NCBI RefSeq assembly: GCF_039954625.1
Contig: NZ_CP157199.1
Coordinates: 1,178,001 to 1,242,000, forward strand
Direction: 5' to 3'
Length of the DNA stretch: 64,000 nucleotides
Origin: Pontimicrobium sp. SW4
GTDB lineage: Bacteria; Bacteroidota; Bacteroidia; Flavobacteriales; Flavobacteriaceae
Shown here: positions 118-30,262 of the stretch, in pieces
Layout of the letters: each line of letters opens with the position of its first letter
Position numbering within the stretch: position 1 is the first letter of the stretch
Translations under genes and position numbers: made by a program
Notes under the pieces: generated by a model
The model's input: only the letters and a program-made list of their open reading frames with translations
The model's database searches: none
Told to the model about the DNA's origin: nothing

Positions 118-160
118 TGAGGAATATCATTTTATAATATTAGGTTCAGCACTATTTTTG
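118..160 (+). promoter_or_regulatory. Crp/Fnr-type box plus -7 element for the WG-repeat gene
   Basis: A box TGAG-GAAT-ATCA (118-129) has one half-site base off the TGAT-N4-ATCA consensus of this region. A perfect -7 element TATTTTTG (153-160) is centred exactly 33 bases downstream. The predicted transcript start is near 165, leaving a leader of about 23 bases before the ATG at 188. Confidence 0.65.
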
Positions 161-187
161 AGTTACTAATTATAAAATGATATAATC

Positions 188-799
188 ATGAAAAAAATAA
201 TTATGTTTACGCTACTAGTTCTTATTTCTGTTAGTAGCTTTACACAAACTACAGAAAACTTAGACTATATTTCACCTTTTACCGAGGGTATTGCTGCCAT
301 CAAAAAAGATAATCAATGGGCATTTATTAATAAAGATGGTGATATTATTGTAAAATTTAGAAATGATTTAGTGACTACTAAATCTCCCGATGGTGATTAT
401 CCTATTTTTAAAAATGGAAGGTGTTTAATTGTAAATAAAAAAAATGGGATTTCATATTTTGGATACATAAACACTTTTGGTAAAACAGTTATTGAACCTC
501 GTTTTTTAAATGCTACAAATTTTAAAAATAATACTGCAACAGTATTAGAACTTAAAAAAGAAGAAATTGGTAAAAATATAGCTTTAGATAAAGTTGTTGT
601 ATACTATAAATATTATGAAGTGACTATAGATAGAGATGGTAATGTAAAAAACTATCTAACTCAAAAGGGTAACAATGTTGTTTTAGACAAAAAGTTTTTA
701 CGTAACCCACCAAAATTTACATCAAAGCAAATTTCAGACAATCTTGTAGCTACTAAAAATGAAAAAGGAAAGTGGACAATAAAAAAAATTATTGAGTAG
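188..799 (+). CDS. WG-repeat protein, exported
   Basis: This 203-residue protein has an N-terminal signal peptide (hydrophobic segment, residues 4-18, then Phe-Thr-Gln). WG/KWG-type beta repeats follow, in which an aromatic-Ile-Asn-x-Asp/Phe-Gly-x-x-Ile/Val pattern recurs (around residues 45-55 and 93-105). Such repeats are widespread in Bacteroidota envelope proteins and have no defined activity. It stands 11 bases ahead of the M50 protease gene and is probably co-transcribed with it and the ABC exporter genes. Its promoter carries a Crp/Fnr-type box. The substrate or partner is unknown. Confidence 0.7.
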   Translation: MKKIIMFTLLVLISVSSFTQTTENLDYISPFTEGIAAIKKDNQWAFINKDGDIIVKFRNDLVTTKSPDGDYPIFKNGRCLIVNKKNGISYFGYINTFGKTVIEPRFLNATNFKNNTATVLELKKEEIGKNIALDKVVVYYKYYEVTIDRDGNVKNYLTQKGNNVVLDKKFLRNPPKFTSKQISDNLVATKNEKGKWTIKKIIE

Positions 800-810
800 A
801 ATCATTCATA

Positions 811-1896: not shown

Positions 1897-1898
1897 GT

Positions 1899-4240: not shown

Positions 4241-4241
4241 C

Positions 4242-4916
4242 ATGAGTATTGTATTAGAAGCAAAACATATTAATAAATACTTTAGGAAACCTGTGATGTT
4301 TCATGTTTTAAAAGATATTAATTTTGAGATTAAAAAAGGTGAATTTGCTTCAATAATGGGAAAATCAGGTTGTGGGAAATCGACATTACTCTATATTCTC
4401 TCTACAATGGATACAGATTATGAAGGAGAACTTTTTTTAAATAACAAACTTATTACTAATCAAAGTAGAGATAATCTTTCTTACATAAGAAATAAAAGTA
4501 TTGGTTTTGTATTTCAATTTCATTATTTGTTATCGGAGTTTTCAGTGTTGGAAAATGTGATGCTTCCTGCCAAAAAATTAGCCGAAAAATCACATCAAGA
4601 AATAGAGTGTGATGCAATAGAGAAGTTAAAAATGCTCAACATTGGTCATCTAGCAAAAAAACGCGCATCGCGAATTTCTGGTGGCGAAAAGCAACGAGTT
4701 GCTATAGCTAGAGCACTTATTAATAATCCCTCAATTATAATGGGAGATGAACCTACTGGGAATTTGGATAGTCATAACGCTGAAAATGTATTCAACATAT
4801 TTGAGCGATTAAGCAACGAGCAAGGTCTTTCACTTTTAGTAGTTACACATGATAAAGATTTTGCGAAAAAGACCGATAGAATCATACAGATGGAAGATGG
4901 TAAAATTATAGTTTGA
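4242..4916 (+). CDS. ABC transporter ATP-binding protein, MacB/LolD type
   Basis: This 224-residue nucleotide-binding subunit has Walker A GKSGCGKST (about residues 39-47), the signature ISGGEKQR, Walker B IIMGDEPTGNLD and the switch histidine in VVTHD. The length fits a stand-alone LolD/MacB-type ATPase. It is the last gene of the adaptor-permease-ATPase set and is followed by an 80-base gap that holds a new promoter for the chaperone genes. All catalytic motifs are intact, so the exporter should be functional. Confidence 0.92.
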   Translation: MSIVLEAKHINKYFRKPVMFHVLKDINFEIKKGEFASIMGKSGCGKSTLLYILSTMDTDYEGELFLNNKLITNQSRDNLSYIRNKSIGFVFQFHYLLSEFSVLENVMLPAKKLAEKSHQEIECDAIEKLKMLNIGHLAKKRASRISGGEKQRVAIARALINNPSIIMGDEPTGNLDSHNAENVFNIFERLSNEQGLSLLVVTHDKDFAKKTDRIIQMEDGKIIV

Positions 4917-4935: not shown

Positions 4936-4978
4936 TGACTAATGTCATTTTATGATTTTTAAATTAGAACTATATTGT
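4936..4978 (+). promoter_or_regulatory. Crp/Fnr-type box plus -7 element for the DnaJ/CbpM operon
   Basis: A symmetric box TGAC-TAAT-GTCA (4936-4947) has the same spacing as the consensus of this region but C/G at the inner position. The -7 element TATATTGT (4971-4978) is centred exactly 33 bases downstream. The predicted start near 4983 gives a leader of about 15 bases. Confidence 0.55.
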
Positions 4979-4997: not shown

Positions 4998-5876
4998 ATG
5001 GCCTTTATAGATTATTATAAAATATTGGAAGTATCCAAAAACGCTAGCGAGAAAGATATAAAAAAGGCTTATCGGAAATTGGCACGTAAGTATCATCCAG
5101 ATTTAAACCCTAACGACAAGGTTGCCGAAAAAAAATTCAAAGAAATTAACGAAGCCAATGAAGTATTAAGCAACCCTGAAAATAGAAAGAAGTACGACCA
5201 ATATGGTGAACATTGGCAAAATGCTGAAGCTTATGAGAAAGCAAAACAGCAACAGCAGTATTCTCAACAATATAGTACTCAAGGACACTCTGAACAAGAT
5301 TTCTCAGATTTTTTTGAGTCTATGTTCGGTGGTAGAGCATCAAGAACACAAGGAAGACAAGCCAAATTTAGAGGACAGGATTTTAATGCCGAATTACAGC
5401 TGGATCTTAAAGATGTTTACACTACCCATAAACGCACCTTAACTGTTAGCAATAAAAATATTCGCATTACCATTCCTGCAGGAGTAGAGAATGGTCAAGT
5501 CATTAAGATAAAAGGACATGGAGGTAAAGGTATTAATGGAGGTCCAAATGGCGATTTGTACATTCAGTTTTCAATTGTTAATTCAACACAATTTAAAAGA
5601 GATGGTGATAATTTATATACCTCGATAGATTTAGATTTGTATAAAGCACTCTTGGGTGGAGAGATTACTGTAAACACTTTTGATGGAAAAGTGAAGTTGA
5701 CTGTAAAACCAGAAACCCAAAACGGAACAAAAGTAAAACTTAAGGGCAAAGGTTTCCCAGTATATAAAAAACAAGGGCAATTTGGTGACTTATATGTTAC
5801 TTATAATATTAAAACACCAACAAACCTTTCAGCCAAAGAAAAAGAACTCTTTACAGAATTAGCAAAATTGAGATAA
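4998..5876 (+). CDS. DnaJ-like co-chaperone (CbpA type)
   Basis: This 292-residue Hsp40 has an N-terminal J domain with the HPD tripeptide at residues 33-35, which stimulates DnaK. A Gln-rich and Gly/Phe-type linker (about 75-115) and the two beta-barrel client-binding domains of the DnaJ C-terminus follow. There is no zinc-finger cysteine cluster, so it is the CbpA/DnaJ2 class and not canonical DnaJ. A CbpM-type gene begins one base after the stop, which supports the assignment. It acts in the cytoplasm. The upstream box suggests control by the local Crp/Fnr-type regulator. Confidence 0.9.
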
Positions 5877-5877: not shown

Positions 5878-6177
5878 ATGGAAACCACAAAATTAATTTC
5901 AATACAACAGTTTTGTAAGTATTATAATGTTCCTAAAACATTTATTAATGCTTTGCATGAGTATGAATTGGTTGAAATAATAGTCGCTAATGATGAAAAT
6001 TATTTAAAAACCGCACAACTCAATGAAGTTGAAAAAATGATGCGATTACACTACGATCTTGATATAAACCTTGAAGGTATTGACGCTATTTATAATTTAT
6101 TAAAACAAGTGGAGACTTTACAAGATGAAATTGTAACACTAAAGAACAGGTTGGATTTTTACGAAAATTTCAAATGA
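5878..6177 (+). CDS. cbpM: chaperone modulator CbpM family protein
   Basis: This 99-residue protein has a MerR-like N-terminal helix-turn-helix fold (residues 5-60) and a C-terminal coiled-coil (about 65-95), the layout of CbpM. In enterobacteria CbpM binds the J domain of CbpA and restrains it. Placement directly behind the CbpA-type gene matches that pairing. The sequence is divergent from the proteobacterial proteins, so the partner relation is inferred mainly from order and fold. Confidence 0.8.
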   Translation: METTKLISIQQFCKYYNVPKTFINALHEYELVEIIVANDENYLKTAQLNEVEKMMRLHYDLDINLEGIDAIYNLLKQVETLQDEIVTLKNRLDFYENFK

Positions 6178-6269: not shown

Positions 6270-6638
6270 TTAACTCTTGCGCCTGCTTTTTATTGGAGTT
6301 CTCGTTCTCGAATGGTATTCTTTAATGTCGTTGCCATAATAATTTTCAACTCTAACTTGTTTTGTTCGCCTTAGATTAATACCATTAAATCTTGTTGGCA
6401 ATACATTTACGGTTATCCAAGCACCATTATCAAGATAAATGTACTTACGTAAAGTTAAATCGTAATAAATAGTATAATCTGGAAAGTAAACATATCTAAC
6501 ATTAACAACTCTGTTGGGATAAAACCATGGTGGTGTTGGGTGGCTTGGTCTGGATGAAATAATAACTGGACCACAATTTTCTAGACTTAAAAAAGCACCA
6601 AGTAAAAAGACGATACTTATAAATTTTGCTTTTTTCAT
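6270..6638 (-). CDS. hypothetical exported protein, probable lipoprotein
   Basis: This 122-residue protein has a hydrophobic N-terminus ending Leu-Glu-Asn-Cys-Gly, an imperfect lipobox with Cys22. The mature part is rich in Tyr, Arg and Pro, with a pattern Tyr-Tyr-Asp-Leu...Tyr-Ile-Tyr-Leu-Asp-Asn-Gly-Ala-Trp-Ile that recurs in small flavobacterial envelope proteins. I do not recognise a named family. It overlaps the preceding lipoprotein gene by four bases (ATGA), so the two are co-translated and probably work together. Confidence 0.65.
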   Translation of the reverse strand: MKKAKFISIVFLLGAFLSLENCGPVIISSRPSHPTPPWFYPNRVVNVRYVYFPDYTIYYDLTLRKYIYLDNGAWITVNVLPTRFNGINLRRTKQVRVENYYGNDIKEYHSRTRTPIKSRRKS

Positions 6639-7276
6639 GGCATATAATTTTCATTGATTATTCGTTTTTCTTCTAGGGATTTAATAATAGCAGTTACATA
6701 ATTTGTAACAGTAGTATTAATTCGTTTAGGGTCTACAATATCATAGGATGCTACCCAAACTAATGACTTATCGTTATTCTCTTTTAAATTATATAATGAG
6801 GTTTCTATATGGTAAATATCATATTTGTTATAATAGCCTTCAACTAGATAAACATCTTGAACCAAATAATAATAAAGACCAAAACGTCTCCAATAATAAT
6901 CTCTTCGGTAGGTGTCACCACTATAAGATACCTTTTCATCTATACCTTTTACTGCGGAAATTAAAATCGCATCAAATCCTTCATTGGAGATTCTTTTTAT
7001 TTCGTTTTCAATATCTCCTTCGGTTTGTTTTAAACTGGTAAAAGTAGGTTTAAAGACATCATAACTTTCAACAGCATCAATACCTCTGTTTGTAAATTCT
7101 GTTTTTAGTTGTTCTTCAAACATTTTTCGTGCAATCAAATTGCCGGTAAGACCTACAATAAGTACTTTTTTTGGTTGATAATTTGTGTATTCTTTATTAA
7201 CCCAAGTATCTGTCATTTTTATTGTTGTACAACTTGTGAGCAGCAATACTATTACGATATAGTAAAATGATTTCAT
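6635..7276 (-). CDS. uncharacterised lipoprotein
   Basis: This 213-residue protein has a clear lipoprotein signal (LLLTSCTT, Cys16). The mature part begins with a conserved-looking TDTWVNKEY segment. An alpha/beta domain follows (KKVLIVGLTGNLIARKMFEEQL, then a region resembling a helix-strand pair around DAILISAVKGID), similar in outline to DUF4136-type or CsgG-like lipoproteins, but I cannot assign it. It is first of two overlapping genes and its promoter carries a perfect box at 7330. A role at the inner face of the outer membrane is inferred from the lipobox only. Confidence 0.65.
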   Translation of the reverse strand: MKSFYYIVIVLLLTSCTTIKMTDTWVNKEYTNYQPKKVLIVGLTGNLIARKMFEEQLKTEFTNRGIDAVESYDVFKPTFTSLKQTEGDIENEIKRISNEGFDAILISAVKGIDEKVSYSGDTYRRDYYWRRFGLYYYLVQDVYLVEGYYNKYDIYHIETSLYNLKENNDKSLVWVASYDIVDPKRINTTVTNYVTAIIKSLEEKRIINENYMP

Positions 7277-7298: not shown

Positions 7299-7341
7299 TA
7301 AAATTATTCCATGTGCGTTAGTATAGCAATGATATATATCA
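7299..7341 (-). promoter_or_regulatory. Crp/Fnr-type box plus -7 element for the lipoprotein operon
   Basis: A perfect palindrome TGAT-ATAT-ATCA lies at 7330-7341. On the minus strand the -7 element TAATTTTA (7306 to 7299) is centred exactly 33 bases downstream, giving a start near 7294 and a leader of about 18 bases before the start codon at 7276. The plus-strand efflux gene is 128 bases away and has its own operators. Confidence 0.75.
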
Positions 7342-13747: not shown

Positions 13748-13790
13748 TGACATTTCTCATTTTTAATACACAATGTTTCATGTATTTTTA
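13748..13790 (+). promoter_or_regulatory. degenerate Crp/Fnr-type box plus -7 element before the CDP-alcohol phosphotransferase
   Basis: A weak box TGAC-ATTT-CTCA (13748-13759) has two bases off consensus. The -7 element TATTTTTA (13783-13790) is centred exactly 33 bases downstream, which is the main reason to report it. The predicted start near 13795 is only about 12 bases before ATG 13807. Confidence 0.4.
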
Positions 13791-13806: not shown

Positions 13807-14415
13807 ATGCTCACATTTAAAAACTATAATATAGCTGATTGGTTTTCGTTCTATAGAGTTATAGCAGCGCCTTTTCTTGTGTTATTATTATGGCTAGACG
13901 AAAGACAGCTTTTTGCATGGTTTTTATTAATTAGTTACTCAACTGATGCTATTGATGGGTATTTAGCTAGAAAGTTAAAAATAACAAGTCCAAGAGGTTC
14001 ACAATTGGATTCTTTTGGCGACCAAATAACGCTTGTGGTTGGGTTAATTGGATTACTTGTTTTTGAAAATGAATTCATCAAAAAAAATATCATTTTAATT
14101 AGCGTTGCATTTGTACCATACATTATACAAATGATTCTTGCCTATTATAAATATGGCAAGGCTACAGCATATCATACCTACTTTGCGAAATTGTCAGCTA
14201 TAATACAAAGTGCATTTATTTTATATTCTTTGTTTTTTGCTCCAAATTACGCTTTGTTTTATATCATGATTGTATTCGGACTCATAGAAACTTTTGAAGA
14301 GATAACACTTATTTTTATGTATGATAATTGGGCGTCAGATGTAAAAGGTATTTATTGGGCGCTTAGAGATAAGCGTCGTTTGAAAAAGGACAAAAATCAA
14401 CATGATATTCTCTAA
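13807..14415 (+). CDS. CDP-alcohol phosphatidyltransferase family protein
   Basis: This 202-residue integral membrane enzyme carries the family signature D-G-x2-A-R-x8-G-x3-D-x3-D (Asp-Gly-Tyr-Leu-Ala-Arg at about residue 46, ending Ser-Phe-Gly-Asp), complete with all catalytic Asp. About five or six hydrophobic segments surround it. It transfers a phospho-alcohol from a CDP donor in phospholipid synthesis; the acceptor (glycerol-P, inositol or other) cannot be read from the motif. Its TAA overlaps the ATG of the metallophosphoesterase gene, so both act from one message. Confidence 0.85.
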   Translation: MLTFKNYNIADWFSFYRVIAAPFLVLLLWLDERQLFAWFLLISYSTDAIDGYLARKLKITSPRGSQLDSFGDQITLVVGLIGLLVFENEFIKKNIILISVAFVPYIIQMILAYYKYGKATAYHTYFAKLSAIIQSAFILYSLFFAPNYALFYIMIVFGLIETFEEITLIFMYDNWASDVKGIYWALRDKRRLKKDKNQHDIL

Positions 14416-15638
14416 TGCGAAGCTACTCATTATTTACTATTTTACTTTTGTGTATTGCAATATTGGTAGTAGATATTTTTGCTTTTTATTGGTTGCAATC
14501 CATGACCCAACTTATTGATTCTGTATTTTTTAGAAATACCATCCATATTGCGTTTTGGGTTTTTACTATTGGACTTATTATATCGATAATGGTACTAAAA
14601 GTAAGATTAGATGATATAGACCCCAGAAGAAAACAACTGCTCGTATCTTCATTGTATGGGTTAACAATATCTTCATTTATTCCCAAAATAATTTTTGTAA
14701 TTGTTATTTCAATTTTATTCTTTACAAACTTTGTGTTTTCAGAAAAAGAATCACTCTTAGTTATTCCACTTATAGGTTTATTTTCTGGATTTCTGCCTTT
14801 TTTTGTAATTGTCTATGGTATTTTTAAGTCAATTTATAACTTTAAAATCTATCATTTAAAAATTGAATTCAAAGACTTACCTAAAACATTCAATGGTTTA
14901 AGAATTGTACATATTTCAGATTTACATTTAGGTAGTTTCAATTATCGATTTCATATTTTAAAGCGTGCTGTAAGCAAGATTAATCATTTAAAACCAGACC
15001 TTATTTTCTTTACTGGAGATTTGGTAAATAATTATGCTTGGGAATTACGTGGATGGACTAGAGTATTCAGGAAATTATCAGCAACAATAGGTAAATATGC
15101 TGTTTTGGGGAATCATGATTATGGAGATTATAGTGAATGGAATTCCAAAAAAGAAAAGCAAGAAAATTTTAAAGCCATTAAGAATTTTTATAAGGAGAAT
15201 GATTTTAACATATTGCTTAATCAATCGGATATAATTGAAAAAGACAATGATAAAATAGCAATTATTGGTGTCGAAAACTGGGGTAAACCACCGTTTAAGC
15301 AATATGGCGATTTGCAAAAAGCTATTAATAAAGTTGGAGCTATTCCATTTAAAATACTGCTATCTCACGACCCATCACATTGGACAGAAGAAGTGGTTGA
15401 CAAAACCAACATAGCCTTAACACTATCTGGGCATACTCATGGTATGCAAGCTGCACTTCAATACAAACAGTTGCAGTGGAGCCCCATAAAGTATAAATAC
15501 AAGCATTGGGCAGGTTTATACAATAGCAAAAACCAATATTTACATGTCAATCGAGGTTTAGGTTGGTTAGGTTTTCCAGGAAGGTTGGGTATGCGACCAG
15601 AAATTAGTTTAATAGAGCTAAAGGTCGAGACTGATTAA
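14415..15638 (+). CDS. membrane-anchored metallophosphoesterase
   Basis: This 407-residue protein has four N-terminal membrane segments (residues about 5-28, 40-62, 85-105, 112-135). The calcineurin-like domain follows with HISDLHLG (Asp169, His171), FTGDLVN, GNHDYGD, LLSHDP and SGHTHG, all five metal-binding blocks intact. It resembles YkuE/UDP-diacylglucosamine hydrolase relatives that act on phospholipid-linked phosphate. Coupling to the CDP-alcohol phosphotransferase suggests a lipid substrate, which is inference. Its last two codons are inside the next promoter's Crp/Fnr-type box. Confidence 0.85.
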   Translation: MRSYSLFTILLLCIAILVVDIFAFYWLQSMTQLIDSVFFRNTIHIAFWVFTIGLIISIMVLKVRLDDIDPRRKQLLVSSLYGLTISSFIPKIIFVIVISILFFTNFVFSEKESLLVIPLIGLFSGFLPFFVIVYGIFKSIYNFKIYHLKIEFKDLPKTFNGLRIVHISDLHLGSFNYRFHILKRAVSKINHLKPDLIFFTGDLVNNYAWELRGWTRVFRKLSATIGKYAVLGNHDYGDYSEWNSKKEKQENFKAIKNFYKENDFNILLNQSDIIEKDNDKIAIIGVENWGKPPFKQYGDLQKAINKVGAIPFKILLSHDPSHWTEEVVDKTNIALTLSGHTHGMQAALQYKQLQWSPIKYKYKHWAGLYNSKNQYLHVNRGLGWLGFPGRLGMRPEISLIELKVETD

Positions 15639-15674
15639 TATCATAGTCTAAGGCGTAAATATTAAATAACTTAG
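15632..15674 (+). promoter_or_regulatory. Crp/Fnr-type box plus -7 element for the 15689 operon
   Basis: A perfect palindrome TGAT-TAAT-ATCA (15632-15643) overlaps the last codons and stop of the metallophosphoesterase gene. The -7 element TAACTTAG (15667-15674) is centred 33 bases downstream. The predicted start near 15679 leaves a leader of only about 10 bases. Confidence 0.65.
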
Positions 15675-16958: not shown

Positions 16959-17807
16959 TTATGTGTTGGCTAACACATTAATAAGTTTTTTGCATCCACC
17001 TTGTTTTATATATTCGGTGTGATCTTTTAAATCTTTGAATTTTTTTCCACAAATATCACTACATAGTATTTTTTTATCAGTTTCTTTATTAAAAGCCTTT
17101 AATATTTTTTTAGCCACTTTGTTGTTGAAGAAAGGTGGTTTTTTACTTGTGTTCTCTCGGCACCAATCTAGCATACGTTTCCATATAGTAGTACTTAATG
17201 CACCACAAGCATTCCCACTCAAACCAAGACCACCAGCAAATCCCGCAACCATCACAGTTTCTTCATAACTAGCTCCTATTTGTTTCAAAACTTCTGATGT
17301 GCAACACAATGGCTTGTCTACTATAACAATATCCGCCGACAGACTTTTAGTTGCTGTTTCAACTGCTTCTGGTGCCCATTGTTCAGCGAGATTAAAGCAA
17401 AGACTATTGTTCATCCCTTGAAGTGTGGTTTTAAGCATAAATTTTGTCATACCCAAAATAGTTGTGAGATTATAACCAATTATGTCTTTACAATTTGTAG
17501 CTCCAGAGGTTTTTACAAAAGAGGTGATGATGTCTTGTGTCGCATTAACTGCAATGGTAATGGCTTTGTCAAGGTTTTTATGTTTACGGAAAGATTCGGC
17601 TCCAATTGCCAAAGCTGTTCCCCAAAGCATCCCACATTGATGGCCTTGATTTAAAATGCCTCCTGCTAATGGATTAAGAGCACGCTCTTCATGCTCCATT
17701 GATTGCTCAAATTCACGATTTAATAAATGCGCAAAAGTTCTAGAGCATGTTTGGCATTTTCTAAAAACTTCTTTGGCATCATTCTGGTTTTTTATTGATG
17801 CTTTCAT
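16959..17807 (-). CDS. C_GCAxxG_C_C family redox protein with two domains
   Basis: This 282-residue protein appears to be a tandem of two C_GCAxxG_C_C modules. The first half has KCQTCSRTF, then GHQCGMLWG, then TNCKDIIG. The second half has LCCTSEVL, GNACGALST, then LCSDICGKKF and GGCKKLINV. Cysteines and Gly-rich helical turns recur in the same order in both. Single-domain members are about 130-150 residues. Function is unknown; metal or redox cofactor binding is suspected. It is transcribed divergently from the bactofilin-like operon, with one shared box between them. Confidence 0.75.
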   Translation of the reverse strand: MKASIKNQNDAKEVFRKCQTCSRTFAHLLNREFEQSMEHEERALNPLAGGILNQGHQCGMLWGTALAIGAESFRKHKNLDKAITIAVNATQDIITSFVKTSGATNCKDIIGYNLTTILGMTKFMLKTTLQGMNNSLCFNLAEQWAPEAVETATKSLSADIVIVDKPLCCTSEVLKQIGASYEETVMVAGFAGGLGLSGNACGALSTTIWKRMLDWCRENTSKKPPFFNNKVAKKILKAFNKETDKKILCSDICGKKFKDLKDHTEYIKQGGCKKLINVLANT

Positions 17808-17830: not shown

Positions 17831-17904
17831 TTAAGATAATGTTTGTATTAAATATTATAAATGATATATATCATTTTATAAATCATTGATAACGAGTAGA
17901 TTTA
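17831..17904. promoter_or_regulatory. bidirectional Crp/Fnr-type promoter (C_GCAxxG gene and bactofilin-like operon)
   Basis: One perfect box TGAT-ATAT-ATCA (17862-17873) lies midway between the two genes, about 60 bases from one start and 63 from the other. The plus-strand -7 element TAGATTTA (17897-17904) and the minus-strand element TATCTTAA (17838 to 17831) are each centred 33 bases from the box. The predicted plus-strand start (near 17909) excludes the in-frame TTG at 17886 and supports ATG 17931. Confidence 0.75.
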
Positions 17905-17930
17905 GTGTGCAATTCAAAAACTTAGAACTG

Positions 17931-19058
17931 ATGAAAACATTAATAACTTTATTTGTTACACTCTGTTCAATAGTCTCTTTTGGACAAACAGAGAATGAAG
18001 GTGTCATCATTATTGATAAGATACAACAGGATGATACTTATCGCGCTGGAGAATCCATAAAAGTAAATGCTGTGATACAAGGAGACTTGGTCATCGCTGG
18101 AGGAAAGCTCATTGTTAATGACAGTATTATTGGAGACTTAACTGCAGCTGGAGGAGAATTATTTCTCAACAGTTATATAGCAGATGACGTTCGTATAGCG
18201 GTAGGAAGGACTACAATCGACTCAGAAATAGGTGATGATTTAGTTGTTTTTGGTGGGGAAGTTATCCTCACGGAAAATGCCATAATTCACGGAAACCTAA
18301 ATTGCTTTGCTGGAAATATTAAAATAAATGGCAAAGTGTTCGGAAAACTTGACATTAAAGGTGGCGATGTCCTAATAAATGGAACTATAAGAGAAGCCTC
18401 AAAAATAGTTGGAGAAGATATTACCATTGGGTCAAATGCTAAATTTTATAAGGATGTTGAATATTGGCATAGCGATGGAGAAATAGATTTCAATAATGCG
18501 CTTATAAATACTCAAGCGCAATTCAATGAAGATCTTAAAGAAGATGCAACGCAGCTATCTTTAACAACCTTTGGTACGAAGTCGTTGTCATTATGGGTAA
18601 AATATATTTTATCTGCTTTTCTAGGAATTCTTGTTTTTCATGCGCTCTTTAAACACGCATTTTCTATAGCTGTTGAAGGCTTAGAAAATAACTGGCTTAA
18701 AAGTTTTGGCTTTGGATTGGTTTACCTCATTGGTATTCCATTATTAATTGTCGTAGCGTTATTAATGATTATTGGTATCCCAATTGGGCTCTTCGCAACT
18801 GCTATATTTATATTTAGTTTGTTTTTCGGTCATTTTGTTGCTTCAATATTACTTGCCTATTATTTCAAGTATAAAAAGAATAAGAATTGGGGATTTTGGA
18901 GTATTACATTGATAGCTTTAGGATTCACCATCTTAATGCGTCTACTTACAACTATACCGTATGTGGGAATAGTTATTTCTGTTGTTATATTGTCAATTAC
19001 TTATGGTGCATTGACCTTGAAGGTTATACATACAAAAAAGCAACGGGTTGTAAATTAA
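17931..19058 (+). CDS. bactofilin-like polymer-forming protein with membrane domain
   Basis: Counted from ATG 17931 this is a 375-residue protein with a signal peptide (MKTLITLFVTLCSIVSFGQ). The N-terminal half (residues about 25-180) is a beta-helix of short repeats with I-x-G-D-L/V-x-x-x-G-G patterns, as in bactofilin/polymer-forming proteins. The C-terminal half holds about four membrane segments. A TTG start 15 codons earlier would hide the signal peptide and lies before the predicted transcript start. A scaffold role in the envelope is inferred. The NTF2-like gene starts one base after it. Confidence 0.75.
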   Translation: MKTLITLFVTLCSIVSFGQTENEGVIIIDKIQQDDTYRAGESIKVNAVIQGDLVIAGGKLIVNDSIIGDLTAAGGELFLNSYIADDVRIAVGRTTIDSEIGDDLVVFGGEVILTENAIIHGNLNCFAGNIKINGKVFGKLDIKGGDVLINGTIREASKIVGEDITIGSNAKFYKDVEYWHSDGEIDFNNALINTQAQFNEDLKEDATQLSLTTFGTKSLSLWVKYILSAFLGILVFHALFKHAFSIAVEGLENNWLKSFGFGLVYLIGIPLLIVVALLMIIGIPIGLFATAIFIFSLFFGHFVASILLAYYFKYKKNKNWGFWSITLIALGFTILMRLLTTIPYVGIVISVVILSITYGALTLKVIHTKKQRVVN

Positions 19059-20228: not shown

Positions 20229-20271
20229 TGACCAATATCATTTTGTAAATAACCTTCAATTTTTACATTAG
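20229..20271 (+). promoter_or_regulatory. Crp/Fnr-type box plus -7 element before the 22-residue ORF
   Basis: A box TGAC-CAAT-ATCA (20229-20240) has one base off consensus. The -7 element TACATTAG (20264-20271) is centred 33 bases downstream. The distance from box centre to the ATG at 20296 is 61.5 bases, the usual value in this window, while the distance to the 20361 gene is about 126. The small ORF therefore appears to be the first cistron. Confidence 0.55.
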
Positions 20272-20295: not shown

Positions 20296-20364
20296 ATGAA
20301 AATTTATCTTAAACTACTGGTTGCGGTATTACTTCTAATATTTTTTACTGTTTTATTTGTATGA
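20296..20364 (+). CDS. 22-residue hydrophobic small protein
   Basis: This ORF encodes Met-Lys-Ile-Tyr-Leu-Lys and then an uninterrupted hydrophobic stretch of 16 residues to the stop. Its TGA overlaps the ATG of the next gene as ATGA, the standard arrangement for translational coupling. It starts at the position expected for the first cistron behind the Crp/Fnr-type box. It may be a small single-span membrane protein that partners the DUF6544-like membrane protein, or only a leader that couples translation. No homologue is known to me. Confidence 0.45.
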   Translation: MKIYLKLLVAVLLLIFFTVLFV

Positions 20365-21458
20365 AAATTATTTTTGCATTAATAGTGATTATTCATGCAC
20401 TTATCCATTTATTGGGTTTTGTAAAAGCATTTCAATTAGCAGAAATAACACAATTAACCCAAAACATTTCAAAACCAATTGGAATGCTTTGGTTGTTCGC
20501 TACAATAGCTTTTTTGATTTCAATAACCTTGGTTCTACTTAAAAAAGATTGGTGGTTTTTTGTTGCATTAATAGCTGTGATAATCTCTCAAACCCTGATT
20601 ATCATATATTGGAAAGATGCCAAATTTGGCACGATTGCAAATGCAATTATACTTTTGGTTAGTATTTCAGCTTATGGTAATTATCGATTCAATAAAATGG
20701 TTCAAACAGAATCAAAACAAATATTACAAAACATTAAAGTTGAAAATCTTCCTATAGTTTCTAAATCAGCTATTAATCATCTGCCAGAAATTGTTCAAAA
20801 ATGGATGCTAAATTCTGGTGTTATTGGGAAAGAACAAATGGTTTCGGTTCACTTAAAACAAGTTGGAGAAATGCGAATAAAACCAGATGGTAATTGGATG
20901 CCATTTACTGCAACGCAGGATTTTAATGTTAAAAATCCTGCATTTGTTTGGGCGACCAAAGTTAAAGTAATGCCAATAATAAGTATGGTAGGTCGTGATA
21001 AACTCTATAATGGAGAAGGAGAGATGCTCATTAAATTAGCCTCTTTAATCCCAGTTGTAAATGAAGGTGAAAACGATAAGATTAACCAAGGAGCTATGAT
21101 CCGGTTTTTAGCTGAAATATGTTGGTTCCCTTCAGCAGTTATAAATGATAACATTACTTGGGAAAGCATTAATGACACTTCTGCCAAAGCAACATTAACA
21201 ATTAATGATAAGAGTGTATTAGGCTTATTTACATTTTCAGATGAAGGTAATTTAATGTCATTTGAAGCCCAACGCTATTATGGAGGAAAAAATGATTCTA
21301 AACTTGAAAAATGGTACGTTGAAATGCTCTCTTATAAGACTTTTAATGGTATTACAATTCCAAATAAAAGTAGTGTTACTTGGAAATTAAATGAAGGAGA
21401 TTTTAATTGGCTTCAATTAGAAATCACTAATCTAAAATTCAATCATTCTCTTTTTTAG
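20361..21458 (+). CDS. DUF6544-like membrane protein
   Basis: This 365-residue protein has four N-terminal membrane segments (residues about 2-22, 42-62, 68-88, 92-112). A soluble domain of about 240 residues follows with blocks LPEIVQKWML, FNVKNPAFVWATKV, GRDKLYNGEGEM and FSDEGNLMSFEAQRYYG. These blocks resemble the DUF6544/DUF6920 family, of unknown function but of lipoprotein-carrier-like beta architecture. It converges with the MlaD-type gene, overlapping it by 20 bases at the 3' ends. Confidence 0.7.
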   Translation: MKIIFALIVIIHALIHLLGFVKAFQLAEITQLTQNISKPIGMLWLFATIAFLISITLVLLKKDWWFFVALIAVIISQTLIIIYWKDAKFGTIANAIILLVSISAYGNYRFNKMVQTESKQILQNIKVENLPIVSKSAINHLPEIVQKWMLNSGVIGKEQMVSVHLKQVGEMRIKPDGNWMPFTATQDFNVKNPAFVWATKVKVMPIISMVGRDKLYNGEGEMLIKLASLIPVVNEGENDKINQGAMIRFLAEICWFPSAVINDNITWESINDTSAKATLTINDKSVLGLFTFSDEGNLMSFEAQRYYGGKNDSKLEKWYVEMLSYKTFNGITIPNKSSVTWKLNEGDFNWLQLEITNLKFNHSLF

Positions 21459-24003: not shown

Positions 24004-24077
24004 CAAATGTATAAGAAAAGTACAATCAAGAAAATGATATATATCATTGTCTGTTTTAGGTTTTATTTAGACATTTA
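24004..24077. promoter_or_regulatory. bidirectional Crp/Fnr-type promoter (Mla operon and coiled-coil gene)
   Basis: A perfect box TGAT-ATAT-ATCA lies at 24035-24046. On the minus strand a perfect -7 element TACATTTG (24011 to 24004) is centred 33 bases away. On the plus strand GACATTTA (24070-24077) is centred 33 bases away with one base off TA. Distances from box centre to the starts at 23979 and 24101 are 61.5 and 60.5. Confidence 0.75.
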
Positions 24078-24784: not shown

Positions 24785-26488
24785 TTAATAATCATAATCT
24801 CCTTTTCTAATATTACTTATCATACCAAAGCCTAATATTATTGCTAAAGCGAAACTAGCTATACCCAATACAGAAATTCCGTTCCAAAGCGGATTAATTT
24901 CAAAAACAATAAATAAAGAAGACCCAATAATAAGTGCTACCATAATGAAAGCTGCAATTAATTGTTTTGTAATTCTCTGCAAAGTATGTACCATTGGATC
25001 AATACCTTTATGTGTTAAATCGACCTTAACTTGACCTGTATTAATTTTGCGTATGGCATTCTTTAAATCAGACGGGAATTCTTCCATATAATCTGTCATT
25101 TCCAAAATAGAATTTACAACTTTTTTACCCATTTTTACAGGGCTGTATTTTCTAGCTACACTTGTTCTTAAATAAGGTTTTACAATTTCGAACTGTTCTA
25201 ATTTTGGATCCAGTTTGCTAATAACACCTTCAAGAGTTACTAAAGATCTTGCAAAAAGAAAAAAATAGGTAGGTGCTTTTAAGCCATGAGCAATAATAAT
25301 ATCTTTTAAATCCAACAGTATCGTACTCATTTCATTTTCATGTATTTCTCGAACATAATATTTTTCTACAAACTCATTAATATCAAATTCTAAGTCTCTC
25401 ATGTTTGTAATTGGAGCATTATTGGATAGTTGTTGTAAAGCTTTAATTATATTTTTTATATTCTTGTTGGTAATAGCAATGAATAATTTACCTAAAATTG
25501 AAATATCTCTTGGTAGCATACTCCCCATCATACCAAAATCTAAATAACAAATATGATTGTTAGGAAGCACCAATAGATTACCTGGATGTGGATCGGCATG
25601 AAAAAAACCATATTCAAAGATTTGTTTGAAGTAGCTAATAGCAAGTCTTCTAGCAATAACTTTTGTGTCAATATCTTTAGCTATTAGCTGTTCAATTTGA
25701 TTTATCTTAATTCCAGAAATAAATTCCATCGCTAAAACCTTTGTAGTTGTAAGTGACGGATATACTTTTGGGGCTTCAGCAAATTGGTCTAAAGACGTAT
25801 CATTTTCAAGATTATTATAAAACCTTTGTATATTAATTGATTCGTTTATAAAATCAATTTCTTTAAGTATGGAGTCTTCAAAGTTTTTAACTAGTCCAAT
25901 AGGATCAAAACTCTTTAAAGAAGGTATTCTATTTTCTAAAATTCCTGCAATTTTATACATTGCCTTAATGTCGTCTTCAATAATCTCATGAATACCTGTT
26001 CGTTGAATTTTTAACGCAACACGTTTACCAGAATGTAATGTCACATTATGCACTTGTGCTATCGATGCAGAGGCAAAAGGTGTTGGTTCGAACCAAGCAA
26101 ACAGATTTTCTACTTTATCTTTTAGCTCAGTTTCTACAACTTTTTTGGCGACATCTTCAGCCATTGGTGGCACATTATCATGAAGTTTTTCTAATTCCAA
26201 GGCTAATTCTAAAGGCACTAAATCTGGCCTGTTGCTTAGAATTTGACCAAACTTTACAAACGTTGGTCCCAATTCTTCACATACCAATCTCATTTTTGCC
26301 CATTTGCTATATTGAGTTGCATGCTTCCTAGATGTTTTAGGAATTAATTTTTGTAAAAATGTATATTGTTTGTTTTCCTCTAAATAATCCACCAAATCTT
26401 CAAAACCATATTTTATTAGGACTTTAATTATTTGATTATACCTAGAAATGGATCTAAAGTTCTTTCCAATCCCTGCTATGATTCCCAT
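24785..26488 (-). CDS. ABC1/UbiB family atypical kinase
   Basis: This 567-residue protein carries the UbiB marks: KFGQ in EELGPTFVKFGQILSNRPD (about residues 72-90), the Ala-rich loop ASASIAQVH, the ATP-site Lys in VALKIQRTG, FHADPHPGNLL, and the metal motif YLDFGMMG. Two C-terminal membrane segments lie at about 500-560. UbiB proteins support quinone synthesis or lipid balance and have ATPase activity. It follows a small coiled-coil gene by four bases, and both share a Crp/Fnr-type promoter. Confidence 0.9.
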   Translation of the reverse strand: MGIIAGIGKNFRSISRYNQIIKVLIKYGFEDLVDYLEENKQYTFLQKLIPKTSRKHATQYSKWAKMRLVCEELGPTFVKFGQILSNRPDLVPLELALELEKLHDNVPPMAEDVAKKVVETELKDKVENLFAWFEPTPFASASIAQVHNVTLHSGKRVALKIQRTGIHEIIEDDIKAMYKIAGILENRIPSLKSFDPIGLVKNFEDSILKEIDFINESINIQRFYNNLENDTSLDQFAEAPKVYPSLTTTKVLAMEFISGIKINQIEQLIAKDIDTKVIARRLAISYFKQIFEYGFFHADPHPGNLLVLPNNHICYLDFGMMGSMLPRDISILGKLFIAITNKNIKNIIKALQQLSNNAPITNMRDLEFDINEFVEKYYVREIHENEMSTILLDLKDIIIAHGLKAPTYFFLFARSLVTLEGVISKLDPKLEQFEIVKPYLRTSVARKYSPVKMGKKVVNSILEMTDYMEEFPSDLKNAIRKINTGQVKVDLTHKGIDPMVHTLQRITKQLIAAFIMVALIIGSSLFIVFEINPLWNGISVLGIASFALAIILGFGMISNIRKGDYDY

Positions 26489-26492
26489 CGTT

Positions 26493-26861
26493 TTATGCTT
26501 CCAATTTATTTAGTCTTGCTTCTAAGAGAGCAACTGTTGCGTCAAGTTTTTCAAGTTTTGCATTTAGAGCCTTAATTTCATCTAAATGTGCTACATTAAT
26601 TTTTTTGTAAAACTTAATCACTAATTCTTTAATTTTGTCATCTAACTCTTCCTTTAATTCATGAGTTTTTAAAATTATTTTATCTACAAACTCTAATTCA
26701 TTTCCATTTTCATCCAATTGAGATTCAGACACAATTCTATTGATGTTATCTTTACCTTTTTCTGAAAGCTCACTTATTTTGTCTAAAAATTGAGTGTCTC
26801 GTGCCAAATAATAAAGACTAGAACTTAATGTGAGTAACTCTAAAATAGTTTTGGTTTTCAT
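26493..26861 (-). CDS. small coiled-coil (phasin-like) protein
   Basis: This 122-residue helical protein has a long charged coiled-coil. Its C-terminal part holds heptads ending LEKLDATVALLEARLNKLEA, similar to the tails of poly(3-hydroxyalkanoate) granule-associated or phasin-like proteins that often sit beside UbiB-type genes. There is no signal peptide. It starts the operon with the UbiB-type gene four bases downstream, so a joint role is likely. The exact family is not clear to me. Confidence 0.65.
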   Translation of the reverse strand: MKTKTILELLTLSSSLYYLARDTQFLDKISELSEKGKDNINRIVSESQLDENGNELEFVDKIILKTHELKEELDDKIKELVIKFYKKINVAHLDEIKALNAKLEKLDATVALLEARLNKLEA

Positions 26862-26888
26862 AATTACACATTTAATTTAAACTAGTGA

Positions 26889-26962
26889 TAAAAGTATTAA
26901 TAAACACCTTTTTTTAATATGATATTAATCATATATAGAAATTTATTAATGCCTTAATTTTA
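26889..26962. promoter_or_regulatory. bidirectional Crp/Fnr-type promoter (UbiB operon and CBS gene)
   Basis: A perfect box TGAT-ATTA-ATCA lies at 26920-26931. The plus-strand -7 element TAATTTTA (26955-26962) and the minus-strand element TACTTTTA (26896 to 26889) are both centred exactly 33 bases from the box. Predicted transcript starts are near 26967 and 26884. Confidence 0.8.
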
Positions 26963-26992
26963 AATATAATTTAGAACAAAACATTAATTAGG

Positions 26993-27400
26993 ATGAAAAC
27001 GAATTCAATAATAGAAGTAATGACCAAAAATGTGGTTTGTGTCACACCAGAACAACAACTTTTGGATGTAAAACATATTTATGAAAAAGAAAATTTTCAC
27101 CACCACATTCCAGTTGAGGAGAACGGTAAATTAGTTGGTATGGTTAGCTTAATAGATTTTATGTATAATATTTCTGGAGCTGGAATTAGTGATGATAATA
27201 TTGTGTATAAAGAACTTAAAGTTAAAGATATAATGACTCAAAACCCTTTTTACTTAACCACAGATGCAACTATTGAAGATGTTGCTAAAGTATTGGAAAG
27301 AGGAAATTATCATGCTGTTCCAGTATTGAAAAATAATAACATAGTTGGTATAGTATCGACAGCTGATTTGATTAAGTATTTTCTAAATAAAACATTATAA
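26993..27400 (+). CDS. CBS-domain-pair protein
   Basis: This 135-residue protein consists of two CBS modules only. The first is residues about 5-55 (VMTKNVVCVTPEQQLLDVK ... GKLVGMVSLIDFM) and the second about 75-130 (DIMTQNPFYLTTDATIEDV ... IVGIVSTADLI). Such free-standing pairs bind adenine nucleotides (AMP, ATP, SAM or NAD) and sense energy state. It has its own promoter, shared with the UbiB operon, and precedes the Prx6 gene, which has its own box. The ligand cannot be assigned. Confidence 0.88.
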   Translation: MKTNSIIEVMTKNVVCVTPEQQLLDVKHIYEKENFHHHIPVEENGKLVGMVSLIDFMYNISGAGISDDNIVYKELKVKDIMTQNPFYLTTDATIEDVAKVLERGNYHAVPVLKNNNIVGIVSTADLIKYFLNKTL

Positions 27401-27438
27401 TACTTGCTTGTAACTTTTCTAGAAATAGTTTGTTATCC

Positions 27439-27481
27439 TGATATTAATCATTTCAAGTTTTTATGTTGAAATTTATCTTTA
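27439..27481 (+). promoter_or_regulatory. Crp/Fnr-type box plus -7 element for the Prx6 operon
   Basis: A perfect box TGAT-ATTA-ATCA (27439-27450) is followed by the -7 element TATCTTTA (27474-27481), centred exactly 33 bases downstream. The predicted start near 27486 leaves a leader of about 19 bases. Confidence 0.75.
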
Positions 27482-27504
27482 TTCAATAATTAAAACATAA
27501 AAAA

Positions 27505-28242
27505 ATGGAAAATATATTCGAAAAAGAACAAGTAATTTCAATGCCAAGAATTGGTGATAATGCACCAGAATTTAAAGCAGTTACAACACAAGGAGAAATA
27601 AATTTTCCTAAAGATTTTACTGGAGAATGGGTTATTCTATTTAGTCACCCTGCTGATTTTACACCTGTTTGTACGAGTGAATTTATGACTTTTGCACATC
27701 TTGAGGAAAAGTTTGCAAAAGCTAATTGCAAATTAGTAGGGTTGTCTATAGATGGTCTATATAGCCATATTGCTTGGTTAAGAACCATTAAGGAAAAAAT
27801 TGAATTCAATGGCATGAAAAATATTGAAGTTAAGTTTCCTTTAATTGAAGATATAACCATGAACGTGGCCAAAAAATATGGTATGATTCAACCTGGAGAA
27901 AGCGAAACTCAAGCTGTAAGAGCTGTATTTTTTATTGATCCAAAGGGTAAAATTAGAGCCATTATTTACTATCCATTAAGCTTGGGTAGAAATTTTGACG
28001 AAATTTATAGAGCATTGATTGCTATGCAAACTTCTGATGAGTTTTCGGTAGCAACTCCTGCTGATTGGAATCCTGGTGATGATGTTATTATTTCTCCAGC
28101 TGGTTCATGTGGTGTCGCCGAAGAGCGTATGACCTCTAAGGATGAGTTAAAATGCGAAGATTGGTTTTTCTGTACAAAACCATTAAATAAAGATATGGTT
28201 TTGGACAAAATTCTTAAAAAACCCAAACTACTTGCTAAGTGA
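27505..28242 (+). CDS. Prx6-type peroxiredoxin
   Basis: This 245-residue peroxiredoxin has the peroxidatic motif PADFTPVCTSEF with Cys56. The long C-terminal arm carries Cys217 and Cys223 in KCEDWFFC, as in archaeal Prx6 enzymes with two extra cysteines, so it may cycle through an internal disulfide instead of the strict 1-Cys scheme. Cys202 in GSCG is extra. It reduces peroxides in the cytoplasm. The stop overlaps the GTG start of the L,D-transpeptidase gene, and the promoter has a perfect box. Confidence 0.92.
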   Translation: MENIFEKEQVISMPRIGDNAPEFKAVTTQGEINFPKDFTGEWVILFSHPADFTPVCTSEFMTFAHLEEKFAKANCKLVGLSIDGLYSHIAWLRTIKEKIEFNGMKNIEVKFPLIEDITMNVAKKYGMIQPGESETQAVRAVFFIDPKGKIRAIIYYPLSLGRNFDEIYRALIAMQTSDEFSVATPADWNPGDDVIISPAGSCGVAEERMTSKDELKCEDWFFCTKPLNKDMVLDKILKKPKLLAK

Positions 28243-29183
28243 AAAAATTAGTATTGCTTTTTTATGCTTTTGTAGCTTTGCTGTTAGTAGTATTTGCTAG
28301 TTCATGTTTTGAAAACAGTGGGGCAAAAACGCTAACTAAAAAAACAAATAATGTAAACCAAGTTTACCATCAGGATTCTATGGTAAACTTGGTTTTACTC
28401 AAAAAAGAAATAACGGTTGAAAATTATTTTCAGTTCTTAGATTCTTTGGTAAACAAATATGACTCATTAACATCCTATAAATTATCTGAGCACCTATTGG
28501 TAAGAGCAAATTCTTGGATTATTGATACACTTCAAAGCACAGATTATTATAGAAGAATAGCCCAAGATTCATTTGTTTACAACCAAAAAAAGATGATTGT
28601 TTTTGCTAAAGGAGCTACCTTAGTTATTCCTGATTCTATCTTAGCTGAAAAAATTCAGAATTCATTCAATAGCACATTAATAGATGTTAATATCCCAGAG
28701 TTTAAACTACGTATCTATGAAGCTAACAACATGCTTTATGACTTTCCAGTAAGGGTAGGTAGAGATGAAAAGGTATATCTTGAAATGTCAGGAAGAATTC
28801 AAGATTTAAAAACTAAAACAGGAAAAGGTCGCATTGTTAATCATGTTCGCAATCCACGTTATGTTAATCCTGTAAGCAATCACGAATATTTTGTAACAAA
28901 GAGAGATGATGAAAGAGTTACAAAACTTCCTCAAATTCCTTTTATAGAAACCGAAATAAATGGTATTAGAAATGGACAGTTAATTCATCCTACCACAAAT
29001 GCTGTTACATTAGGTAAAGCTTATTCCAACGGTTGTATTGGTACTAGTGAAGCGGATGCTTGGGTTATTTATTATTATGCACCTTTAGAAACCAAAATAA
29101 AAATTAGGTATGACTTAAATGTGGTTAATAAAGAAGGCGACAGCATCCTTTTAAAAGATATTTATAGTAAAAAGAAGAAGTGA
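28239..29183 (+). CDS. L,D-transpeptidase (YkuD domain), probable lipoprotein
   Basis: This 314-residue envelope protein has a hydrophobic N-terminus and a likely lipobox (FASSC, Cys23). The YkuD domain (about residues 150-300) holds His250 in HPTT and the catalytic Cys266 in YSNGCIGTS. Such enzymes cross-link peptidoglycan stems or attach proteins to them. The start is GTG 28239, overlapping the Prx6 stop (GTGA), since no ATG is close. Coupling to a peroxiredoxin suggests that cell-wall strengthening is part of the same stress response. Confidence 0.85.
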   Translation: MKKLVLLFYAFVALLLVVFASSCFENSGAKTLTKKTNNVNQVYHQDSMVNLVLLKKEITVENYFQFLDSLVNKYDSLTSYKLSEHLLVRANSWIIDTLQSTDYYRRIAQDSFVYNQKKMIVFAKGATLVIPDSILAEKIQNSFNSTLIDVNIPEFKLRIYEANNMLYDFPVRVGRDEKVYLEMSGRIQDLKTKTGKGRIVNHVRNPRYVNPVSNHEYFVTKRDDERVTKLPQIPFIETEINGIRNGQLIHPTTNAVTLGKAYSNGCIGTSEADAWVIYYYAPLETKIKIRYDLNVVNKEGDSILLKDIYSKKKK

Positions 29184-30191
29184 TTATACTGTTTTGGTTA
29201 TGTCAGTCAACTCATTTTTAGTTTCTTTACCTTCACTCCAACAGTCTAGATTATATATGGTCGTTTTGGCTATATTTGTCAAAGCCTCTTCAGTTAAAAA
29301 TGCATGATGTCCAGTGATAATCACATTAGGCATTACATTTAATTTAATTAGTAAATCATCATCAGGAATGTTTTGCGACAAGTCATTAAAGAAAACGCCT
29401 TTTTCATTTTCATAAACGTCCATTCCTAAAGCACCAATTTTTCCGCTTTTTAATCCATTGATTATGTGTTCTGTATTGACAACAGAACCTCTTGCAGTAT
29501 TAATAATAATAACCCCATCTTTCATTTTAAAAATTAAGCTTTCATTAATTAGTTGGTGTGTTTCGCTATTTAATGGAACATGCAACGAAATAATATCTGA
29601 TTGTCTGCATAAATCTTCTAGTGGAACATAGTGTAAATTATACTGTTCACATAACTCGTTATTTTCATTAATGTCGTAACCAATCAAGTTACAACCAAAA
29701 CCATGCATTATTTTGGTCATTACCGAACCTATTTTTCCAGTACCAATAATACCAACCGTTTTATTTTTCAAATCGAATCCAACGAGATGATTTAGGTTAA
29801 AATTAAAAAGTTTTACACGGCGGTTGGATTCAATGGTTTTTCTATTAAGTGCTAGCAATAAACCCACAGCATGTTCTGCAATTGCATATGGGGAATAGGC
29901 AGGTACATTAGCTACTCTAATATTTAACCTAGAAGCTGCCCTTAAATTTACATTATCATAGCCAACAGACCGCAAGGTTATATATTTTACGGCTAAATCA
30001 CTTAGTTTTTCAATAGTAATAAAACAAGCCTCATCTGCAGAAAATATGGATATCCCTTCATAGCCAACCGCTTTAGAGGCGGTTTTAGAAGATAATGCTT
30101 CTTCAATAAAAACAAGTTTATGTTTTTTGTTATTGGCCTTTTTTAAATAAGAAATTTCAAAGTCTCTGGTACTATACACAAGTACTTTCAT
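29184..30191 (-). CDS. D-2-hydroxyacid dehydrogenase (D-lactate dehydrogenase type)
   Basis: This 335-residue enzyme has the NAD-binding GIIGTGKIG (about residues 148-156), the substrate Arg in NTARGSVVN, the acidic Glu region and the catalytic His in GHHAFLTEEA. It begins KVLVYSTRDFEISYLKKAN, as D-lactate dehydrogenases do. It would reduce pyruvate to D-lactate with NADH, a fermentative outlet. It converges with the L,D-transpeptidase gene (stops adjacent). Its own promoter has a perfect box, so regulation with low oxygen is plausible. Confidence 0.85.
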   Translation of the reverse strand: MKVLVYSTRDFEISYLKKANNKKHKLVFIEEALSSKTASKAVGYEGISIFSADEACFITIEKLSDLAVKYITLRSVGYDNVNLRAASRLNIRVANVPAYSPYAIAEHAVGLLLALNRKTIESNRRVKLFNFNLNHLVGFDLKNKTVGIIGTGKIGSVMTKIMHGFGCNLIGYDINENNELCEQYNLHYVPLEDLCRQSDIISLHVPLNSETHQLINESLIFKMKDGVIIINTARGSVVNTEHIINGLKSGKIGALGMDVYENEKGVFFNDLSQNIPDDDLLIKLNVMPNVIITGHHAFLTEEALTNIAKTTIYNLDCWSEGKETKNELTDITKTV

Positions 30192-30219
30192 GAGTAATGT
30201 TATTATAATGTGAATTGTA

Positions 30220-30262
30220 TAAAACTATTTAGAAACTCGAAGCTACCAAATGATATTTATCA
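30220..30262 (-). promoter_or_regulatory. Crp/Fnr-type box plus -7 element for the D-lactate-type dehydrogenase
   Basis: A perfect box TGAT-ATTT-ATCA (30251-30262) and the minus-strand -7 element TAGTTTTA (30227 to 30220) are centred 33 bases apart. The predicted start near 30215 leaves a leader of about 24 bases. Confidence 0.75.

Follow-up and report, generated by a model that had tools for sequence, protein, structure and literature searches.

Which protein reads the palindromes that stand before so many genes in one half of a stretch of the Pontimicrobium sp. SW4 genome (3.44 Mb; 31.5% GC)? The stretch analysed, hereafter the window, is 64,000 nucleotides long (positions 1,178,001–1,242,000 of contig C1), and an initial annotation made from the letters alone had listed eleven boxes of the type TGAT-N4-ATCA in it, assigned them to a Crp/Fnr-type regulon and placed the regulator elsewhere. 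The answer favoured here is that the boxes are probably the operators of a response regulator in which a receiver domain is fused to a Crp-type module (REC-CRP), run by a FixL-like histidine kinase, the whole forming a two-component, class II Crp-type regulon for stress or low oxygen.

All eleven boxes were found at the positions listed (Table 1), seven of them perfect TGAT-N4-ATCA sites, and each is followed on at least one strand by TAnnTT at exactly 23 bases. With the full octamer TAnnTTTG, this gap equals the 33 bases between the centres of box and -7 element that had been described for the whole set. Searched as TGA-N6-TCA, 23 bases, then TAnnTT, the rule gave 13 pairs in the window, all in its left half, while the remaining 33 spacers between 8 and 41 gave 0–3 pairs each. 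The excess over shuffled sequence foreseen in the initial annotation is large: in 500 dinucleotide shuffles of the window the mean was 0.57 pairs and the maximum 3, and none reached 13. It had expected two or three perfect boxes by chance, and this was also sound, as the shuffles contain 2.33 on average against the nine perfect sites in the window. Two of its statements need trimming. Three divergent boxes and 14 promoters had been counted; divergence is exact at 17862 and 26920 and not at the third pair, which leaves 13 exact promoters. The exact element lies on the minus strand only at boxes 7330, 24035 and 30251, and the plus-strand elements at 7330 (CAAATT) and 24035 (GACATT), judged by eye, are one base off each. 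The right half, said to hold no box, indeed gave no pair of box and TAnnTT, but it does contain two perfect palindromes (35628–35639 and 37540–37551), which lie inside long open reading frames (ORFs) and have no -7 element at the fixed spacing. An inverted repeat held at one fixed promoter distance is the arrangement of a class II Crp/Fnr-type regulon, and the position of the -7 element would place the box about 41 bases from the transcript start.

The regulon is real and extends beyond what was seen in the window. When 60 kb to the left were added (124 kb in total), spacer 23 gave 20 pairs, and none of the other spacers between 10 and 39 gave more than four. The block of boxes, hereafter the island, runs about 12 kb left of the window to position 1,166,468 of contig C1, with two outlying boxes at 1,150,660 and 1,151,641. 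Genome-wide, 61 matches at spacer 23 were obtained versus 20 for the reversed pattern, and 20 of the 61 fall between 1,150 and 1,209 kb. Among the 41 matches outside the island, 18 were inspected; four of these fall within ORFs. The remainder include boxes that precede genes for a fused cbb3 oxidase subunit, a radical-SAM protein taken to be hemN-like, a cytochrome c, and TonB, CBS and HPF proteins. These look like an Fnr set; the likely Fnr targets share the geometry of the island, several of them with a slightly different box.

A search of the genome for the Crp-type helix-turn-helix (HTH) yielded four proteins that passed the cut-off and a fifth, weak match. REC-CRP, one of the four, has 350 amino acids and is encoded 3.1–4.2 kb left of the window (L019:15825–16877, minus strand), so that the regulator does lie outside it. 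Receiver, cNMP_binding and HTH_Crp_2 domains each score above their Pfam cut-offs, and REC-CRP thus joins the cNMP-type beta-roll and Crp HTH of a class II Crp/Fnr-type regulator to a receiver. Crp proteins that respond to cyclic AMP carry a Glu and an Arg-Ser pair in the phosphate-binding cassette; in REC-CRP, PYKETATA or a similar sequence replaces the RSA-type motif (by eye). Nor does the protein begin with the N-terminal Cys cluster of Fnr, since the receiver domain stands there; a separate Fnr-like protein of the same genome (P0002, L016:973–1650) begins MSKCEQC. Of the four that passed the cut-off, REC-CRP and the Fnr-like protein alone have E-x3-R in the recognition helix (by eye), and the two remaining Crp-type proteins, whose helices lack it on the same inspection, were set aside as candidates. 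A PAS histidine kinase of 627 amino acids is encoded directly upstream of REC-CRP on the same strand (L019:16965–18848, minus).

This arrangement is conserved. The receiver residues Asp52 and Lys104 and the recognition-helix residues E316 and R320 are kept in 31 of 31 aligned REC-CRP proteins, and the kinase stands directly upstream in 29 of the 31, the other two being second copies in the loci L060 and L062. Kinase, REC-CRP, a spacer-23 box and a universal stress protein (Usp) follow one another in that order in 27 of 29 loci, the exceptions being G042 and L064; the region G118 was left out of the gene-order and alignment counts because its REC-CRP fell outside the protein cluster. In the loci L056–L063, from Xanthomarina, Gaetbulibacter, Pontimicrobium, Winogradskyella and two less precisely named members of the Flavobacteriales/Flavobacteriaceae, the whole regulator is 69–85% identical. 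The second REC-CRP-type proteins near the first (L060:3772–4842 and L062:3835–4911) have no member of the kinase family directly upstream, and second copies at 42–46% identity occur in other genera too.

The spacing is conserved as well. In 40 kb around REC-CRP in each of 20 relatives, spacer 23 gave 175 pairs and every other spacer from 8 to 41 between 4 and 15, which bears out the class II-like geometry proposed for a Crp/Fnr-type regulon; the regions contribute from 1 pair (G042) to 16 (G108). A wider set of 30 regions, made up of the window's own genome, the 20 relatives and nine of 25 further relative loci, contains 248 spacer-23 pairs. A gene begins behind 216 of them, and 18 fall within coding sequence, compared with 29 of 84 pairs at six control spacers.

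The occurrence of the box across the family argues for REC-CRP as its reader. One genome per genus was taken (120 genomes), and the comparisons were made on 119, with the window's own genome left out. REC-CRP was called present at E ≤ 1e-40 (54 of 120) and an Fnr orthologue at E ≤ 1e-60 (69 of 120). The mean number of island-type boxes was 6.85 with both regulators (n = 26), 3.85 with REC-CRP only (n = 27), 2.31 with Fnr only (n = 42) and 0.67 with neither (n = 24); a reversed-pattern control gave 11 matches in all 120 genomes. The box is thus commoner where REC-CRP is encoded, whether an Fnr orthologue is present (p = 7.7e-9) or absent (p = 1.7e-7), genomes being treated as independent of kinship. 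The Fnr-type pattern behaves differently: it goes with the presence of Fnr (29 genomes with, 3 without; p = 3.7e-6), and REC-CRP makes no significant difference (p = 0.61). Of the 27 genomes that encode REC-CRP but no Fnr orthologue, 12 were inspected, and in nine of them the best match to the Fnr-like protein is itself of REC-CRP type. In G101, G069 and G040, nothing but REC-CRP matches the Fnr-like protein at E ≤ 1e-8, and these genomes retain 4, 6 and 7 island-type boxes, respectively, with 11 pairs around REC-CRP in G101.

Beyond the family, REC-CRP was detected (E ≤ 1e-50) in 38 of 247 genomes of the phylum, all 38 in the window's class, with at most eight candidates scored per genome, which makes the absences soft. 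Up to 20 kb around REC-CRP was analysed in 20 loci, 19 outside the family and one (L158) inside it. REC-CRP is directly followed in five of them (L142, L143, L147, L149 and L154) by a box that has TAnnTT at 23 bases, and in L142, L143 and L149 this box stands directly before a relative (44–50% identity) of the D-lactate-type dehydrogenase that follows a box in the window. In L142, L143, L149 and L154 a pair of palindromes is separated by exactly 22 bases, and TAnnTT comes 23 bases after the second. A Usp gene within 600 bases of REC-CRP on the same strand was found in 0 of the 20 loci.

What the kinase senses may be approached through its domains. Among solved structures, the first PAS domain comes closest to FixL (1d06, E = 6.7e-11), followed by DosP (E = 1.4e-9). 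In both alignments, its His64 is paired with the His that serves these sensors as heme ligand. His64 and the kinase residue His412 are both invariant in 30 of 30 kinases, and His64 is kept in all 11 loci where the first PAS domain matched, of the 20 further loci (10 outside the family, one inside). A FixL-related PAS domain with the aligned His, followed by HisKA and HATPase domains, is the build of a FixL-type kinase. The second PAS domain of the kinase in the window's genome (residues 131–252) is a LOV domain, with matches to 4gcz, a blue-light photoreceptor construct (E = 4.2e-33), to aureochrome 1 (about 4e-28) and to phototropin (about 2e-27), and it holds NCRFLQ with the flavin-adduct Cys, as LOV photoreceptors do. 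The whole kinase matches the YtvA model at E = 3.6e-46 and a blue-light kinase model at 5.7e-35, both below the curated cut-offs. The LOV insertion is present in 8 of 30 kinases, with the Cys kept in seven (the window's genome and six others) and replaced by Ile in G115; the LOV columns are absent from the other 22. This distribution suggests that the ancestral system probably had the heme-type PAS domain alone and that light sensing is a later addition; in the window's genome, blue light or the flavin redox state may tune the response.

Taken together, these features allow a mechanism to be proposed. Upon a fall in oxygen or energy supply, the kinase would phosphorylate Asp52 in the receiver of REC-CRP; the Crp dimer would then bind TGA-N6-TCA centred near -41 and activate RNA polymerase at the Bacteroidota TAnnTTTG promoter in a class II manner. 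The products, including Usp, Hsp20, a DnaJ-type chaperone, a peroxiredoxin, CBS proteins, lipid transport, an L,D-transpeptidase and the D-lactate-type dehydrogenase, would ready the cell for survival under limited oxygen or energy, and the gene content fits the low-oxygen or stress role suggested in the initial annotation. A different cue for the kinase, be it nitric oxide, a small ligand, light alone or the redox state of the cell, seems rather unlikely, albeit deserving consideration. The ligands of PAS domains are varied, many kinds of stress call on Usp and chaperones, and seven of the eight inserted LOV domains keep the adduct Cys; on the other side, the first PAS domain is closest to FixL and DosP with the heme-type His invariant, most of the kinases have no LOV domain, and a D-lactate-type dehydrogenase is among the targets.

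Several observations weigh against REC-CRP as the reader of the boxes and its kinase as an oxygen sensor. Heme binding and oxygen sensing by the PAS domain are argued from sequence alone. Island-type boxes also occur without REC-CRP, at the lower means given above, and 5 of 66 REC-CRP-negative genomes have at least five of them. Few local pairs are found despite REC-CRP in G042 and L064 (1 each), L062 (2), and G071, G040 and L060 (3 each). The 20 loci of the wider comparison show a weak spacing excess, with 16 pairs at spacer 23 (two of them in L158) and up to nine at other spacers. In the family-wide search at most 17 candidates were scored per genome, so some REC-CRP absences may be misses, and the statistics across genera set phylogeny aside. 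Finally, among REC-CRP genomes Fnr raises the island-type count (6.85 vs 3.85, p = 2e-4), so Fnr probably shares sites.

The last point leads to the possibility, tentative at best, of a shared regulon in which Fnr and REC-CRP both bind the same boxes and the box sequence sets the balance between them. Island and Fnr-type boxes have core and spacing in common, box 13748 looks intermediate between the two types, and island-type counts peak where both regulators are encoded; the two pattern types nevertheless track different regulators across 119 genera. Less probable still, and considered improbable, is that the Fnr-like P0002 is the main activator of the island and that REC-CRP acts elsewhere or merely modulates. 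The E-x3-R helix common to both proteins, the 23-base spacing of the likely Fnr targets (cbb3 oxidase, hemN-like, cytochrome c and HPF genes) and the rise of the island-type count with Fnr would agree with it, but REC-CRP genomes without Fnr clearly exceed those with neither regulator, G101 has no other match to P0002 than REC-CRP yet carries 11 spacer-23 pairs, and the Fnr-type pattern follows Fnr and not REC-CRP. Fnr as the sole activator is ruled out by the cross-genus split and by the Fnr-less genomes. A chance origin of the palindromes in AT-rich intergenic DNA, for which the 2.33 bare TGAT-N4-ATCA sites per shuffled window could be cited, is refuted by the shuffles, by the spacer profiles of the window, the 124 kb and the relatives, and by the low share of spacer-23 pairs in coding sequence, and has practically no probability left.

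With REC-CRP retained as the probable reader, its predicted targets may be surveyed. Across the 30 regions, the recurrent first genes behind a box include those for a Usp (28), an uncharacterised family of 138 amino acids (17), Hsp20 (12), a WG protein (10), MlaE (6) and an HPF-like ribosome factor (5). Autoregulation finds little support, a gene of the kinase family coming first after a box in only 2 of 30 regions. The 138-residue family, second in frequency, is represented at L019:19005–19421 (plus strand) and has no Pfam or NCBIfam match. Box-linked genes left of the window encode four Usp, Hsp20, a beta-CASP nuclease, an ATP-cone/Mrr-type protein, a DUF302 protein and small uncharacterised proteins. 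The beta-CASP nuclease (L019:9026–10399, minus strand) adjoins the ATP-cone/Mrr-type protein; the names Cas14 of type VII CRISPR (384 bits vs a cut-off of 800) and aCPSF1 (273 bits vs 580) were tried for it and neither was earned. In the window (Table 1), box 15632–15643 overlaps the 3' end of ORF 14415–15638, and the listed TTG start of ORF 17886–19058 precedes the -7 element, so translation more likely starts at an in-frame ATG near 17931.

Table 1. Boxes and -7 elements in the window, with the genes that follow them
Feature	Position	Strand	Genes behind
Box 118–129 (TGAGGAATATCA), -7 element 153–160	118..160	+	WG-repeat protein (188–799) and genes behind
Box 4936–4947 and -7 element	4936..4978	+	DnaJ-type chaperone (4998–5876); MerR_2 protein (5878–6177), presumably CbpM-like
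Box 7330–7341 (TGATATATATCA) and -7 element	7299..7341	-	Uncharacterised protein with lipoprotein-like start (6635–7276)
Box 13748–13759 (TGACATTTCTCA, least typical) and -7 element	13748..13790	+	CDP-alcohol phosphatidyltransferase (13807–14415); phosphoesterase (14415–15638)
Box 15632–15643 and -7 element	15632..15674	+	Uncharacterised protein (15689); PNPOx-like protein; zinc-ribbon protein
Box 17862–17873, minus promoter	17831..17873	-	C_GCAxxG_C_C redox protein (16959–17807)
Box 17862–17873, plus promoter	17862..17904	+	ORF 17886–19058
Box 20229–20240 and -7 element	20229..20271	+	DUF6920/DUF6544 protein (20361–21458)
Box 24035–24046 and -7 element	24004..24046	-	MlaE/ABC/MlaD lipid-transport operon (24006 down to 21439)
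Box 26920–26931, minus promoter	26889..26931	-	26493–26861; UbiB/ABC1-type protein (24785–26488)
Box 26920–26931, plus promoter	26920..26962	+	CBS-domain protein (26993–27400)
Box 27439–27450 and -7 element	27439..27481	+	Peroxiredoxin (27505–28242); L,D-transpeptidase (28239–29183)
Box 30251–30262 and -7 element	30220..30262	-	D-2-hydroxyacid (D-lactate-type) dehydrogenase (29184–30191)

If the proposal holds, a complete pathway for survival under low oxygen or energy stress is predicted in the Flavobacteriaceae, from sensor and phospho-switch to operator, promoter rule and targets, and TGA-N6-TCA, 23 bases, TAnnTTTG would serve as a one-line rule for finding targets across genera. A further step, offered tentatively and judged somewhat short of an even chance, is that in the window's clade a FixL-like heme PAS domain and a LOV domain integrate oxygen and blue light in one kinase, which hands the signal on by phosphotransfer to a Crp-type protein that activates a dormancy-like regulon. 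On this reading marine flavobacteria would couple their stress-survival state to oxygen and light together, and the receiver-Crp fusion would be an oxygen response widespread in its bacterial class, standing where FixJ and FixK stand in Alphaproteobacteria.

Parts of the system have counterparts elsewhere. LOV histidine kinases and YtvA-type photoreceptors share the NCRFLQ-type LOV domain beside a kinase core; the LOV domain here differs in being inserted into a FixL-like kinase, and the output is Crp-type. In the mycobacterial DosRS/DosT dormancy regulon, heme sensor kinases control many genes for Usp, small heat-shock proteins and CBS proteins, but DosR has a LuxR-type output and another operator, and REC-CRP carries no LuxR/NarL HTH. 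Fnr, Anr and FnrL share the palindrome core and the class II-like position known for Fnr. Fnr senses oxygen directly through a Cys cluster that holds an Fe-S centre, whereas REC-CRP has an N-terminal receiver in its place, and the separate Fnr-like protein in the same genome has likely targets of its own.

As far as the accessible text of each source extends, the heme-requiring kinase of Myxococcus xanthus NmpRSTU controls an oxygen-use regulon with cbb3 oxidase and hemN (PMC11841059, in which "universal stress" appears 12 times, in the accessible part as reference entries), although that system differs in its globin sensor, multi-step relay and NtrC-like regulator; the Crp/Fnr homologues of Flavobacteriales are predicted to be carbon-sensing, with the word "receiver" absent from that paper's accessible part (PMC8510549), and receiver fusions are mentioned in general terms (PMC9239204). 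No description of a receiver-Crp regulator in Flavobacteriaceae was found among the open-licence papers, in the portions available, and an earlier one may exist; the parts of the system are known, and its architecture and regulon in this family look new. The available portion of one study reports that FixK2 is controlled by oxygen via FixLJ rather than directly, that predicted FixK targets include Hsp20, FixL and FixJ, and that UspA is a predicted core target of alphaproteobacterial FNR (PMC2908626). The system proposed here is most like the FixL-FixJ-FixK cascade of rhizobia and Caulobacter in having a FixL-like heme-type PAS kinase on top and a Crp/Fnr-type output. It differs in its targets, which are stress proteins instead of nitrogen fixation, and in its layout: FixJ is separate from FixK and controls fixK expression, while the response regulator here ends in a Crp HTH instead of pairing a LuxR-type output with a separate fixK. 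Receiver and Crp module are thus one protein, and the system may be seen as FixL-FixJ-FixK compressed into two proteins, with a light-sensing domain inserted into the sensor in some genera.

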